A stretch of 64,000 nt of DNA. Source: Gemmatimonadetes bacterium 2013_60CM_65_52. GTDB taxonomy: Bacteria > Gemmatimonadota > Gemmatimonadetes > Gemmatimonadales > Gemmatimonadaceae. How positions within the stretch are numbered: position 1 is the stretch's first letter; each line of letters begins with the position of its first letter. Below are positions 41,085 to 46,846 of this stretch, in pieces. The notes under the pieces were generated by a model that was given only the letters and a program-made list of their open reading frames with translations, was not told the origin of the DNA and searched no databases. A program made the position numbers and the translations under genes. The DNA lies in NCBI GenBank assembly GCA_002215645.1, contig NGFI01000008.1, positions 186,001 to 250,000 of the forward strand, written 5' to 3'.

Positions 41085-41819
41085 ATGACCGCGCTCGCGG
41101 GCCGCGTCGCACTGGTGACCGGCGCGGGCCGGCGCGTCGGCCGCGCCATTGCCCTGGCACTCGGTGCGCAGGGCATGCGCGTCGTCGTGCATTACAACGC
41201 GTCGGCCGAAGGAGCGCGCGAGACCGCGCGTCTCATCGTCCAATCCGGCGCTCAGGCGAGCACGGTCCAGGCGGATCTCGCCGACGTGTCCGCGTGTGAA
41301 CGGCTCGTGGACGACACCGTTCGCGAGCAGCGCGAGCTGTTTCTCCTCGTAAACTCCGCGGCGATCATGATGCGCACGCCGATCGGCTCCGTCAGCCGGC
41401 GCGATTGGGACGAGATGTACGCGATCAACGTGCGTGCGCCATTTTTCATCGCGCAGCGCGCCGCCCCTGCGCTCCGCGAAGTGCGTGGCAACGTGGTGAA
41501 CATCGCCGATCTGGCGGCCTTCGAATCGTGGACGACCTACGTGCCCCACGGGATGACGAAGGCGGCGCTCGTGCAGATGACGCGCTCGCTGGCACACGCG
41601 CTCGCGCCGGAGGTGCGTGTCAATGCTGTCGCACCGGGCACGGTGTTGTTGCCGGAGGGGTTCGATCCGGCGCAGGCGGACCATCTGCGGCGCACGACGC
41701 CACTGGGCCGCCTGGGATCGCCGGAAGACGTGGCGCAGGCCGTGGTGTATCTCGCCACGGCGGATTATGTGACGGGCGAAGTCATTCGTGTCGACGGCGG
41801 CCGGCACATCAGGACCTGA
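41085..41819 (+). CDS. Short-chain dehydrogenase/reductase, pteridine-reductase-like, catalytic Tyr replaced by His
   Basis: A 244-residue SDR: cofactor motif TGAGRRVGR (the GxxxRxG form of pteridine reductases), HYNAS for NADPH phosphate binding, and a C-terminal VRVNAVAPGTVLLP. In the active site the usual YxxxK reads HGMTK: Lys159 is present but His155 stands where the catalytic Tyr belongs (in Leishmania PTR1 the aligned segment is YTIYTMAK). Asp142 matches the PTR1 Asp. It may use a changed mechanism or be non-reductive. The next gene's GTG overlaps its end by 32 nt. Confidence 0.82.
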   Translation: MTALAGRVALVTGAGRRVGRAIALALGAQGMRVVVHYNASAEGARETARLIVQSGAQASTVQADLADVSACERLVDDTVREQRELFLLVNSAAIMMRTPIGSVSRRDWDEMYAINVRAPFFIAQRAAPALREVRGNVVNIADLAAFESWTTYVPHGMTKAALVQMTRSLAHALAPEVRVNAVAPGTVLLPEGFDPAQADHLRRTTPLGRLGSPEDVAQAVVYLATADYVTGEVIRVDGGRHIRT

Positions 41820-42585
41820 CAGCGCCTCGCGGCGCACGCGCGATCCGCTGGCCTTCCAAACGATTACGGTGGTAGGCGGCGGCTGTTACGGCAGCTACTA
41901 CGTGCGGCAGCTTGCCCGTGCCCATCGTGCCGGAGCGGCGACGTGGTCCGAACTTGTCGTCGTGGACCACGACCCGGCGTGTCGCGCAGTCTCGCTGGCG
42001 GACGAAGAGCGTGTTCCAGGTCTGCGCTGCGTGATCAGGACATGGGCGAGCTACTTCGACGACATGTTGTCGGGCGCCGCGGATACCGGACGCGACGTCG
42101 CAGGTGACGCCATTGTCCCGTCGCCGCTCATGCCGCACCTCATGGCCGAGTGGATCGTCGCGCGTGCACGGCGCCGCTGGCCGCACCGGCGCGTCGCGGT
42201 CGAGCCACTTCTCTCACCTCCGGACGTGCCGTGGCAGCGCGCTGGCGAGGATGGAACGCATTACGTCAGCTTCGCCACGTGGATGTGCCCGATCAATTGC
42301 ATCGAGCCGGCCCGCTGTCCGGAGACCCGAGGACCACGGGACTGGAGCCTTCCGCCGGCGCTTGCGCGTTACGCCGAGCGGGAGCGAGAGGCTGGACGTC
42401 CCGTGGAACATCCGCTCGTGTTTCACTGCTCGCACCGCACGTACGGCGTGGGCATGATCGATGTAGGAGACGTCATTGCCGCTGATGTAGCAGTGGAGCG
42501 CGGCGCACGTGCGCGGCCGGCCGCGTTTCTGCTCGGGACCGCGTCCCACTGCCACGGCGCCGTGCAGCGCCTGGTGATCGATTGA
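41788..42585 (+). CDS. Unknown Rossmann-like protein with a Cys cluster
   Basis: A 265-residue protein starting at GTG 41788, inside the SDR gene's 3' end. After a ~25-residue lead it has ITVVGGGCYGSYYVRQLARA, a glycine-rich dinucleotide-type loop followed by an acidic strand (ELVVVDHDPACRAVS). The middle holds a Cys cluster (CPINCIEPARCPETRG) which could bind a metal or Fe-S cluster; later FHCSHRTYGVGMIDVGDV and GTASHCHGAV add Cys and His. No family is recognised. It may be a redox or metal-dependent NAD-linked protein (inference). Confidence 0.55.
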   Translation: MSTAAGTSGPDSASRRTRDPLAFQTITVVGGGCYGSYYVRQLARAHRAGAATWSELVVVDHDPACRAVSLADEERVPGLRCVIRTWASYFDDMLSGAADTGRDVAGDAIVPSPLMPHLMAEWIVARARRRWPHRRVAVEPLLSPPDVPWQRAGEDGTHYVSFATWMCPINCIEPARCPETRGPRDWSLPPALARYAEREREAGRPVEHPLVFHCSHRTYGVGMIDVGDVIAADVAVERGARARPAAFLLGTASHCHGAVQRLVID

Positions 42586-42675
42586 GAATTGGAACGGAAG
42601 GTTCCCCCGCGGACTTCTCAAGGTGAGATTTCCATTGTCGGCGCGCTGAGGCGCCGCATCGCTCGAGGACGGAAC

Positions 42676-43659
42676 GTGGTCACGAGGAATTCCTACGACG
42701 TCATCATCGTCGGTGCAGGACCGGCCGGGATGTGCGCCGCGCTGTATACAGGTCGTTCGATGCTCCGCACCGTGGTGCTGGAGCGCGGCACGCCGGGCGG
42801 CGAGCTCCTGAACACCGAAAAGCTCGACGACTGGATCGGCGAGAAGTCGATCCTCGGCTGGGAGCTTGCGCGCAAGTTCGAGGAGCACGCACGTGAGTTC
42901 GGCGCCGAGTTCGTCACCGCCAACGTCAGCCGCGTCACCCGGCTCGATGACGGAACGTTCGAGGCTGTCACCGACACCGGCGAAGTGTACTCGGCGCCCG
43001 CCGTCATCCTCACCGCGGGCGGCACGCCGGTGAAGCTCGGCATTCCCGGTGAGCTGGCCTTTGCGGGTCGAGGCGTCTCGTACTGCGCCATCTGCGACGG
43101 CGCCTTCTTCCGCGAGCAGGTGATCGCCGTGGTTGGTGGCGGCGACGCGGCGGTCGAGGAGGCGGACTTCCTCACCCGGTACGCCAGCAAGGTGTACGTC
43201 ATTCATCGCCGCGAGGCATTCCGCGCATCGCGGATCCTGCAAGAGCGCCTGTTCGCCAACCCGAAGATCGAAGTCATCTGGAATGCCGTGGCCGAGGAAA
43301 TTACCGGCGACTCGACGGGCTTGATGAACGCCATCCGCCTGCGCGACGTCGTGACCGAGGACGTCCGCATGCTCGACGCAACGGGATGCTTCGTCTTCAT
43401 CGGCTTTCGTCCGAACACCGGCGTCATCGACGGGCACTTCGATCACGACGAGATGGGCTACATCCGCACGGATGCCACCATGCAGACCTCGATTCCCGGG
43501 CTGTTTGCGGCCGGCGATCTGCGCTCGCAGCTCACGCGGCAGGTGACGACCGCCGTGGGTGACGCCACCACAGCCGCTATCGCCGTCGAGAAGTATCTGA
43601 AGGCCCGCACCGAGGGCGGCGTCGTCGTGCCGCAGGGAATGGGCGGCTACGCCGTATGA
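42676..43659 (+). CDS. trxB: Thioredoxin reductase
   Basis: A 327-residue FAD/NAD(P)H enzyme. GTG 42676 has GAGGA 7 nt upstream and puts the FAD loop IVGAGPAGMCAAL at residue 11; an earlier TTG frame adds an unrelated stretch. The redox-active pair is CAIC (Cys137, Cys140) in SYCAICDGAFF, followed by the NADPH loop VVGGGDAAVEEADFL and the C-terminal GLFAAGDLRS. It reduces thioredoxins such as Trx2 at 9200-9643. It is coupled to the MBL gene (ATGA overlap) and lies just upstream of the selenoprotein candidate. Confidence 0.92.
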   Translation: MVTRNSYDVIIVGAGPAGMCAALYTGRSMLRTVVLERGTPGGELLNTEKLDDWIGEKSILGWELARKFEEHAREFGAEFVTANVSRVTRLDDGTFEAVTDTGEVYSAPAVILTAGGTPVKLGIPGELAFAGRGVSYCAICDGAFFREQVIAVVGGGDAAVEEADFLTRYASKVYVIHRREAFRASRILQERLFANPKIEVIWNAVAEEITGDSTGLMNAIRLRDVVTEDVRMLDATGCFVFIGFRPNTGVIDGHFDHDEMGYIRTDATMQTSIPGLFAAGDLRSQLTRQVTTAVGDATTAAIAVEKYLKARTEGGVVVPQGMGGYAV

Positions 43660-44300
43660 AGATCGAGCATCGCACCGTCAGCGTATTCGAGGAGAACTGC
43701 TACCTCGTCGTGGACGAGGCGACGCGGCATGCGGTGCTCATCGATCCAGGCGACGAGGGTGGACGAATCGTGCGCATGGTGCGCGAGTCCGGAGCCACGC
43801 TCGACGCCATCTGGCTGACGCACGCGCACATCGATCACATCGGCGCGATCAATGATGTGCACGCTGAATACGACGTTCCGGTTCGCCTGCACCCATCCGA
43901 CCTGCCGTTCTACGAACAACTCTCCGCGCGTGCCGCTCAGATGTACGGGCTGCCGTGGGACCAGCCGGCCGCCGCGACGGAGCCTCTCACCGAAGGCGAC
44001 GTGCTGTCGTGCGGCGCTCTCGACTTCACCGTGATGCACGTGCCAGGACACGCGCCCGGGCACGTGGCATTTGTTGGGCAGGGAGTAACGCTGTCCGGCG
44101 ATCTGCTCTTTGCCGGCAGCATAGGTCGAACGGATCTGCCGCTTTCGGATCCACGGGCCATGGATCAGTCACTCGCGCGCTTCGCCGCGCTTCCTGAGGG
44201 CACAGTGATCTATCCGGGCCACGGTCCGACAACCACGATCGAGCGCGAGTTGGCGACGAATCCGTTCCTGTCGGGTCGCGCGCGAACACTGAAGCGTTGA
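43656..44300 (+). CDS. MBL-fold metallohydrolase (glyoxalase II-like)
   Basis: A 214-residue metallo-beta-lactamase-fold hydrolase with HxHxDH (THAHIDHIG; His56, His58, Asp60, His61), then VMHVPGHAPGH and DLLFAGSIGR, and a late YPGHGPTTT. It resembles YcbL/glyoxalase II-type thioester hydrolases that bind two metals. Cytoplasmic. Overlaps trxB by four nt, and the AhpD-like gene begins 1 nt after its stop, placing it in a redox-oriented group. Confidence 0.88.
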   Translation: MKIEHRTVSVFEENCYLVVDEATRHAVLIDPGDEGGRIVRMVRESGATLDAIWLTHAHIDHIGAINDVHAEYDVPVRLHPSDLPFYEQLSARAAQMYGLPWDQPAAATEPLTEGDVLSCGALDFTVMHVPGHAPGHVAFVGQGVTLSGDLLFAGSIGRTDLPLSDPRAMDQSLARFAALPEGTVIYPGHGPTTTIERELATNPFLSGRARTLKR

Positions 44301-44301
44301 C

Positions 44302-44835
44302 ATGAGCGACGAAGCGAGACTTCCACGGCTGGGTCCGAGTGAGGCACCCGAAGAGGTGCGCCCCACGTTCGACGCGTTTATTGCCGAGCGCGGCAAAGTG
44401 CCGAACCTGTTTCGCGTTGCGGCGCACGCTCCGCTCATTGCCGCGCGTCTGGCGGCGCTCAACAAGGTCGTGATGGGACCCGGCGAGGTGCCCGTCATTC
44501 TGAAAGAGCTGTTGAGCACCCGGGTGTCGCACATCAACCTGTGCGATTATTGACTGGCCTCCCATACCGCCTTGGCAAGGCGGCAGGGTGCAACGGAGGA
44601 GCAGCTCGATGCGGTGGCGCGCGGCCAGTACGCCGTGTTCGACGAGCCGTGGCGCGCCGCATTCGCGTACGCCGACGCGATGACGCCGACACCGGGCATC
44701 GTGGGTGCGCCAGTGTTCGACACGCTGGCGTCACACTGGAATGCCACGCAGATCATCGAGATTACGGCCGTGATCTCGATGTACAACTTCTTCAACCGCT
44801 TCGCGCACGCGCTGGACGTCCCGATCACGCGATGA
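44302..44835 (+). CDS. AhpD-like selenoprotein candidate (in-frame TGA at 44551-44553 read as Sec84)
   Basis: One continuous frame of 177 residues with a single internal TGA at codon 84. Upstream it reads ELLSTRVSHINLCDY, downstream LASHTALARRQGATEEQ; together these give CDY-U-LASH, the CxxCxxxH motif of AhpD/carboxymuconolactone-decarboxylase proteins with Sec as the second Cys. Glu69, Cys81, Sec84 and His88 have the same spacing as Glu118, Cys130, Cys133 and His137 of Mycobacterium AhpD, the proton-relay and redox residues. A hairpin with SECIS geometry follows. Likely a thiol/selenol peroxidase or oxidoreductase. A nonsense mutation or read error is the alternative. It begins 1 nt after the MBL stop. 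Confidence 0.8.
44561..44588 (+). promoter_or_regulatory. Bacterial SECIS-like hairpin downstream of the in-frame TGA
   Basis: CCGCCTT (44567-44573) pairs perfectly with AAGGCGG (44577-44583) around the 3-nt loop GGC; CCC (44561-44563) and GGG (44586-44588) can extend it. The apical loop starts 20 nt after the TGA and its first base is G. These fit the known bacterial SECIS pattern (loop of 3-14 nt, G in its first two positions, 16-37 nt from UGA). The stem partly explains the use of TTG and AGG codons. Confidence 0.65.
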
Positions 44836-44880: not shown

Positions 44881-46308
44881 ATGTCCACCGCGACTCGCAC
44901 GGAAAAGGATCCACTCGGCACCAGGGATGTACCGGCCGAGGCCCTGTACGGCGTCCAGACAGTCCGCGCGAAGGAAAACTTCCCGATTAGCGGATTTGCG
45001 CCTCTGTGGCCGTTCGTCATGGCGCAGGTGTGGATCAAGAAGGCCGCCGCGCTCACGCACAAGGAGACCGGACGTCTCGACCCGAAGCTCGCCGACGCCA
45101 TCGTGAAGGCCGCGGACGAGGTGCTGGCGGGAAAACACAACGATCAGTTCATCGTCGATCCGTATCAGGCCGGCGCGGGCACGTCGCACAACATGAACGT
45201 GAACGAGGTGCTCGCCAATCGCGCCAACGAGTTGCTCGGCGGCGCACGCGGGACGTACACGCCGGTGCATCCGAACGATCACGTGAACATGGCGCAGAGC
45301 ACCAACGACACGATTCCTACCAACATCCGGCTCGCGTCGCTGTCACAACTCGATGCGCTCGTGTCCGCGTTCGAGGGACTGCGCGATGCGCTGGGGGTCA
45401 AAGGGAAGGAGTTCGATCACATCGTGAAGGCGGGCCGCACGCACTTGCAGGACGCCATGCCCATTCGTCTCGGGCAGGAGTTCACGGCGTACGCCGGCTC
45501 ACTTGATCGAGGGACTCGACGCGTGCGCGAAGCGGCCGACTATCTGCGCGATCTCGGCATCGGTGGAAGCGCGGTCGGCACGGGCGTCACCGTCGAGAAG
45601 GAGTATCCGCCGCTGATGAACAAGCACCTCTCCGCGATCAGCGGGCTCTCGCTCCGCATCGGCGCGGATCGCATTCAGTTGATGCAGAGCATGGGCGACG
45701 TCGCGGCGTTCAGCGCCGCGCTGCGCGTGCTCGCCATCGACCTCAGCAAGATTGCCAGCGACCTGCGCCTCATGGTGATGGGCCCGCGCACCGGCATCGA
45801 CGAGATCACGCTGCCGGCCGTGCAACCCGGTTCGTCCATCATGCCGGGCAAGATCAATCCGTCCATTCCGGAGATGGTGAATCAGGTCTGCTTTCAGGTC
45901 ATGGGACTCGATACCACCGTCGCCATTGCCGCGGAGCACGGGCAGCTCGAGCTCAATGTGATGATGCCCGTCATCGCGTTCAACGTGCTCCTCTCCATGC
46001 GCATTCTCACGAACACCGCCAGGGTCTTCGCGGAGAAATGCGTCTCCGGCATCCAGGCGAACGAGGACATGTGCGCCTACTGGGTGGAACGGTCCGCCGC
46101 GCTCGCCACCGCGCTCATGCCGCACATCGGCTACACGCGGGCGGCCGAGATCAGCAAGCAGTCGGTCAAGGAGGGCGTGCTGGTGCGCGACCTGGTCAGG
46201 CGCGACGGACTTCTGCCCGCCGACGAGATTGACGAGGTGCTCGATCTGCGCAAAATGACCGAGATCGGCGTGCCCGGCGGCGCCCATGGCATGGTGGCGG
46301 GTGGCTGA
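44881..46308 (+). CDS. aspA: Aspartate ammonia-lyase (aspartase)
   Basis: A 475-residue member of the fumarase/aspartase superfamily. Signature GSSIMPGKINP (~residue 317) carries the catalytic serine loop. DPYQAGAGTSHNMNVNEVLAN and GQLELNVMMPVI fit aspartase better than class II fumarase, whose equivalent reads QTGSGTQTNMN. It deaminates aspartate to fumarate and ammonia. Length fits (~470). It may use aspartate imported by the DAACS-type symporter at 25222-26583. A fumarase role cannot be fully ruled out. Confidence 0.85.
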   Translation: MSTATRTEKDPLGTRDVPAEALYGVQTVRAKENFPISGFAPLWPFVMAQVWIKKAAALTHKETGRLDPKLADAIVKAADEVLAGKHNDQFIVDPYQAGAGTSHNMNVNEVLANRANELLGGARGTYTPVHPNDHVNMAQSTNDTIPTNIRLASLSQLDALVSAFEGLRDALGVKGKEFDHIVKAGRTHLQDAMPIRLGQEFTAYAGSLDRGTRRVREAADYLRDLGIGGSAVGTGVTVEKEYPPLMNKHLSAISGLSLRIGADRIQLMQSMGDVAAFSAALRVLAIDLSKIASDLRLMVMGPRTGIDEITLPAVQPGSSIMPGKINPSIPEMVNQVCFQVMGLDTTVAIAAEHGQLELNVMMPVIAFNVLLSMRILTNTARVFAEKCVSGIQANEDMCAYWVERSAALATALMPHIGYTRAAEISKQSVKEGVLVRDLVRRDGLLPADEIDEVLDLRKMTEIGVPGGAHGMVAGG

Positions 46309-46354: not shown

Positions 46355-46846
46355 GTGCGCATCACCACTCAGGCGGAATACGGACTCATCTGTGCCCTGC
46401 ATCTGGCACGCCGGCTGGCCGAAGGGCCGGTAACCGGCCGCGAGATTGCCGCGCGTGAGCGGCTGCCCGGGGACTATGTCGAGCAGATCATGCTGAAGCT
46501 GCGCCGCGCCGGCATCGTGAGCAGCACGCGCGGCGCGCACGGCGGCTATCATCTTGCGCGCGTGCCTCAGGAAATCACGGTGCGCGACGTCATTGCCGCG
46601 TCGGAGAATTTCACCTTCGACGTGCACTGTGTCTCGCATCCGGTGGAAGCGGAACGCTGTGCGGAGTCGCACGACTGCAGCATCCGTCCGGTTTGGGTGC
46701 TCCTGCAACAGCGCATCGACGAAGTGCTTGCCAGCGTCCGCCTGAGTGATCTCCTGTTGCAGGAGCGCGAGGTGCGTGAGCGCGTCGGGCTGCGTGAGCC
46801 CGCCGCGGTGTCCACCGGACGCCTCGCACTTCCCGTTCTCAGCTGA
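46355..46846 (+). CDS. Rrf2-family transcriptional regulator with three cysteines
   Basis: A 163-residue Rrf2 protein: N-terminal winged helix (TTQAEYGLICALHLAR; LPGDYVEQIMLKLRRAGIV; GAHGGYHLAR) and three Cys at 92, 102 and 108 (C-x9-C-x5-C), close to the IscR/NsrR arrangement that holds an Fe-S cluster. It probably senses redox state, iron-sulfur supply or NO and controls nearby genes. GTG start only 8 nt after a TAGATT element, so the message could be leaderless. Confidence 0.88.
   Translation: MRITTQAEYGLICALHLARRLAEGPVTGREIAARERLPGDYVEQIMLKLRRAGIVSSTRGAHGGYHLARVPQEITVRDVIAASENFTFDVHCVSHPVEAERCAESHDCSIRPVWVLLQQRIDEVLASVRLSDLLLQEREVRERVGLREPAAVSTGRLALPVLS

Follow-up and report, generated by a model that had tools for sequence, protein, structure and literature searches.

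The stretch at 44302–44835 raises the question of whether a TGA in the middle of a reading frame ends the gene or encodes selenocysteine (Sec). Within the window, by which we mean the whole 64,000-nucleotide stretch of DNA analysed, calling open reading frames with the standard code gives two genes here, one of 83 amino acids (44302–44553) and one of 87 starting from a TTG at 44572, reproducing the two false genes of 83 and about 87 residues that a preliminary description had predicted. When the TGA is read as a residue, translation gives a single frame of 177 codons from an ATG at 44302 to a terminal TGA at 44833–44835, in which the sole in-frame TGA is residue 84. This bears out the coordinates and the CDY-U-LASH motif first proposed, and also the remark that the gene is otherwise undamaged, as the window copy has no other lesion.

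44302–44835, forward strand: predicted gene of an AhpD-like selenoprotein (177 residues, U84), CMD/AhpD fold by Pfam (translation, Pfam, AlphaFold2, Foldseek)
44551–44553, forward strand: in-frame TGA, putative Sec84 in CDYU, at the place of the second CxxC cysteine (orthologue alignment)

An AhpD-like frame across an in-frame TGA

Homology runs through the TGA rather than up to it. The Pfam CMD model (PF02627) matches residues 44–125 (1.1e-18, 67.4 bits against a gathering threshold of 23), and the match to TIGR01926 crosses the TGA as well. With the CMD match extending across the TGA, and with 34 sequences from the phylum carrying TGA at this codon, the observation lies far beyond chance. 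The preliminary description had equated the spacing of Glu69, Cys81, Sec84 and His88 with that of residues 118, 130, 133 and 137 of Mycobacterium AhpD, and in the TIGR00777 alignment the correspondence is exact: the matched segments are of equal length (59–105 and 108–154), so 69/81/84/88 fall on 118/130/133/137. Glu118, Cys130, Cys133 and His137 are listed as the proton relay of M. tuberculosis AhpD, an enzyme with another helix order (PMC3141380). Both M. tuberculosis AhpD and P. aeruginosa PA0269 have the identical spacing of Glu-Cys-(His/Tyr)-Cys-His, but with Cys where the present protein would have Sec. Across 28 homologues, with Sec counted as Cys, there is no variation at Glu69, Cys81, position 84 or His88. 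Elsewhere on the window's forward strand, a scan of codon usage picked out no TGA flanked on both sides by 40 codons of coding-like open frame. From the sequence evidence assembled here, we regard it as almost certain that this is an intact AhpD-like selenoprotein gene whose UGA at codon 84 is decoded as Sec.

Selenocysteine machinery and codon 84 in relatives

The source assembly (4.2 Mb, 97% complete), which among named genomes stands closest to bins of Gemmatimonadaceae, contains selA (542 bits), selB (324 bits), selD (367 bits) and one tRNA-Sec gene, selC (69.6 bits, UCA anticodon), directly behind selD. The preliminary description had named selA, selB, selC and selD as the genes to look for, and all four are there. 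A second selenoprotein gene of this genome is selD, whose frame carries a TGA (CAG-U-AAKLGP) at the place where Sec is usual; it lies at L021:2781–3830 (G000 C13, about 706780–707830), directly upstream of selC.

The other comparison proposed at the outset, an alignment with homologues, shows either TGA or Cys at codon 84: among 42 Gemmatimonadota orthologues, 34 have TGA and eight have TGC. Our family sample of 179 genomes (orthologue cut-off E <= 1e-20) yielded an orthologue in 18, ten with TGA and eight with TGC, and tRNA-Sec was present in 10/10 of the TGA genomes versus 1/8 of the Cys genomes (Fisher p 0.00025). In a phylum sample of 395 genomes, TGA forms turn up, at 36–50% identity, in other families and among class-level relatives as well, and 22 of 24 further TGA genomes have a tRNA-Sec. 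None was detected in the remaining two TGA-bearing genomes, G408 (86% complete) and G298 (87% complete, one contig). At both loci (L088 and L095, respectively) the hairpin described below is intact beside the TGA; an incomplete assembly or a divergent tRNA-Sec are both options there. One genome with a tRNA-Sec (G112, L043) has an orthologue that is nevertheless a Cys form without the hairpin, a change from Sec to Cys without loss of the Sec system. Only one orthologue, L093 (G394 C236), shows another stop: it is a TGA form with an extra in-frame TAG in the C-terminal half, possibly a decaying copy or an error. In the protein tree three groups of Cys forms (g4+g5, g24 and g27) are nested among the Sec forms, which suggests about three changes from Sec to Cys in this clade; an exact count is unsure because g24 and g27 are long-branched and the root is set by just two distant rows. 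A plasmid search for homologues returned only sequences with <35% identity among the matches listed.

Substitution rates point to constraint along the whole frame. Before and after the TGA alike, dN is much lower than dS (dN/dS of about 0.09–0.21 before and 0.21–0.47 after), and by this measure both sides are under purifying selection. The somewhat higher ratio after the TGA is due in part to the hairpin, which lowers dS there (0.10–0.22 in the 12 codons past the TGA versus 0.44–1.3 in the two gene halves).

A covarying hairpin downstream of the TGA

If Sec is inserted at codon 84, one might expect a SECIS element close behind it, and a candidate is present, together with a possible extension at its base.

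44567–44583, forward strand: SECIS-like hairpin CCGCCUU-GGC-AAGGCGG, 7 bp, loop GGC at 44574–44576 (MFE, covariation)
44561–44588, forward strand: possible SECIS lower stem, weaker, 44561–44563 with 44586–44588 (RNAalifold)

The hairpin begins 13 nt past the UGA, at base 17 if the U of UGA is base 1. The bacterial SECIS model has a loop of 3–9 nt, a stem of 4–16 bp, G as the first or second loop base and a spacing of 16–37 nt (PMC13188914); an MFE of at most -7.5 served as a further criterion. The hairpin falls within this model, with a 3-nt loop, a 7-bp stem, G at loop position 1, 20 nt from UGA to loop and, for the minimal hairpin, an MFE of -9.5 kcal/mol (z -2.4). The MFE of a 55-nt stretch alone is not significant (z -1.2), so the argument needs covariation and the minimal hairpin. 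Each of the seven pairs is kept in 33–34 of the 34 TGA sequences, with compensatory types at five pairs. Across 26 distinct TGA sequences, 99.5% of cells are paired versus 91.7% in shuffles (0/500 shuffles as high), and 24 cells carry double changes, at three pairs, versus 8.1 in shuffles. In one class-level sequence the stem is largely rewritten (CGCAGCU-GGC-AGCUGCG), fully paired around the same GGC loop. The three pairs of the possible lower stem form in 32, 24 and 29 of the 34 sequences, and none of them shows a compensatory change. The hairpin is lost in Cys forms, where 0/8 are paired at four of the seven positions. Some of its codons are rare in the window's genes, among them TTG (7% of Leu) and AGG (5% of Arg). 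They are close to fixed among the TGA sequences, apart from covarying swaps between AGG and AGA, and in the Cys forms they have mostly given way to others. An Rfam scan of the window found no RNA besides two tRNAs.

We infer that Sec is actually inserted at UGA 84. SelB with Sec-tRNA(Sec) would decode the codon, the downstream hairpin would position SelB, and the charged tRNA would be supplied via SelA and SelD. That Sec replaces a redox Cys had been put forward as the simplest reading, and the sel genes, the TGA and Cys homologues and the covarying hairpin, on which the preliminary description is silent, lend it strong support.

Several other readings would also account for a TGA at this position. 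A recent nonsense mutation could have truncated an AhpD-like gene, leaving a pseudogene, and under standard annotation the stop is indeed premature. But 34 orthologues, some with identities of only about 36–40%, share the TGA, the half downstream of it is conserved and under purifying selection, and there is no second lesion in the window copy, L093 being the only place where another stop occurs. Conservation of the TGA across the phylum refutes the pseudogene reading, to which we assign an extremely low probability. The TGA could also be an error of sequencing or assembly at 44551, where the true codon would be TGC or TGT and a single-base slip would be enough to make TGA. Such a slip would not produce the same TGA in independent assemblies of many species, or a covarying hairpin behind it that is without counterpart in the Cys forms; since the TGA recurs in independently assembled genomes of other species, we exclude an error, whose probability is negligible.

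It might also be that the UGA is read through, but not as Sec, either by nonspecific readthrough or by a reassigned code that inserts Trp, Gly or Cys, and a readable UGA alone is silent on the inserted residue. We consider this very unlikely, as the gene itself terminates with TGA, residue 84 aligns with the catalytic Cys and not with Trp or Gly, and a full Sec system is present and co-occurs with the TGA, with a hairpin that fits the SECIS model. Finally, UGA-Sec codons always compete with termination, and this general competition would allow a scheme in which translation mostly stops at the UGA and the hairpin adjusts the output of an 83-residue N-terminal piece to the selenium supply. Such a piece would stop short of Sec84 and His88 and contain only half of the fold, and selection on the C-terminal half indicates that the full-length product matters, so we give regulated truncation scarcely any credence and continue with decoding of UGA 84 as Sec.

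Fold, family and gene neighbourhood

Modelled by AlphaFold2 with Cys in place of Sec, the product is predicted to be a single continuous helical AhpD domain (pLDDT 96.2, pTM 0.91), with AhpD of D. radiodurans (6k40, TM 0.85) as its best Foldseek match. The structures 6k40, 2oyo, 2prr and 6ohi (Bmp8) share the overall fold of the model (TM 0.83–0.87, 22–31% identity). To our knowledge all four are Cys enzymes, in contrast to the Sec proposed here. Bmp8 is a debrominase, and because its AhpD-type fold reportedly also supports reductive dehalogenation, the fold does not reveal the substrate. In such an all-helical domain, Cys81-x-x-Sec84 together with Glu69, Tyr83 and His88 would form the known AhpD proton-relay site with Sec for the second Cys, and the enzyme would most likely be a thiol-dependent peroxidase or a disulfide/selenenylsulfide reductase.

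Profile models place the protein near several families. It passes the TIGR00778 AhpD core model (56.3 bits, cut-off 27.8) with the Glu/Cys/Cys/His catalytic set present, and scores below the cut-off of every whole-protein NCBIfam model that it matches. TIGR01926, peroxidase-related enzyme, matches over nearly the full length (71.5 bits, cut-off 81.8), which makes the protein a near relative and not a member. NF053654, YciW-related (seleno)protein and likewise named as a Sec/Cys family, matches over the full length (64.8 bits, cut-off 310, E 8e-18), and the protein is not a member of that equivalog. NF041238, AhpD-related CFYUT (seleno)protein, shares the AhpD core with CxxU but is twice as long (357 positions) and scores 36 bits against 175 over residues 69–175 only; classical AhpD (TIGR00777) gives 23.2 bits against 191.95. 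The known AhpD-like selenoproteins (COG2128/YciW/TIGR01926) belong to the same profile family, with Sec second in CxxC and a SECIS immediately downstream. The remark that selenoprotein members had been reported in this thiol-redox family holds: 27 AhpD-like CxxU sequences were described from the Sargasso Sea in 2005 (PMC1088965) and 299 and 70 AhpD-like sequences, including 'AhpD-like 1', from GOS (PMC2398784), and the table of a 2026 review places them under TIGR01926 and PF02627 (PMC13188914). Because this family is published, the find is less surprising than first judged. The clades known earlier come from marine metagenomes, whereas the present one comes from Gemmatimonadota. In the literature searched, whose coverage leaves out most subscription journals, we found no report of AhpD-like selenoproteins in Gemmatimonadota, nor any of selenoproteins of this phylum. 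Judged by sequence, ahpD(Sec) of Gemmatimonadota is thus a new clade of a kind known since 2005.

The gene sits among others on the same strand.

42589–43659, forward strand: thioredoxin-disulfide reductase trxB, CAIC active site (TIGR01292, 349 bits, cut-off 343)
43656–44300, forward strand: MBL-fold hydrolase, glyoxalase II-like (TIGR03413, 3.1e-32, below its cut-off; synteny)
44881–46308, forward strand: aspartase/fumarase superfamily enzyme (NF008909, 619 bits, cut-off 510; synteny)
46355–46846, forward strand: Rrf2-family regulator after the lyase gene (TIGR00738, 110 bits, cut-off 73)

The trxB and MBL frames overlap by 4 bases, the MBL stop is followed by one base and then the ahpD-like ATG, and the aspartase/fumarase-type lyase begins 45 bases past the ahpD-like stop. 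The order trxB, MBL hydrolase, ahpD(Sec), aspartase is found in most family relatives and partly in other families of the order, and the Rrf2-family regulator is retained near the gene in L002, L003, L039 and L042. The cluster is not universal, since the ahpD-like gene of the distant family f9 has none of the window's neighbours within 3 kb. The Cys-form genus g4 has an insertion of ~0.9 kb before the lyase of the cluster. In the window, a 265-residue ORF at 41788–42585, in the interval from an SDR-like gene to trxB, has no NCBIfam match. Scans for promoters and terminators around the cluster stayed at chance level.

By gene order and family resemblance, a thioredoxin-linked peroxidase or reductase appears the likeliest function, and gene order alone suggests the thioredoxin system of the neighbouring trxB as its reductant. 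We speculate that the Sec clade is old, that its product is the catalytic end of a trxB-MBL-ahpD(Sec)-aspartase operon acting as a redox/detoxification module on an undescribed substrate, and that about three lineages replaced Sec with Cys, mostly where tRNA-Sec was lost; as a whole this picture is tentative and we hold it to be doubtful.

A selenoprotein clade that spans the phylum, with a covarying SECIS, is thereby documented in Gemmatimonadota, and its Sec and Cys forms make up a clean natural series, paralleled by whether the tRNA is there or not. The same locus is also a caution for annotation, as treating TGA always as a stop splits such genes or labels them pseudogenes. The predicted AhpD-type selenoenzyme lies in a recognisable gene cluster, where its electron donor and its substrate can be put to the test.
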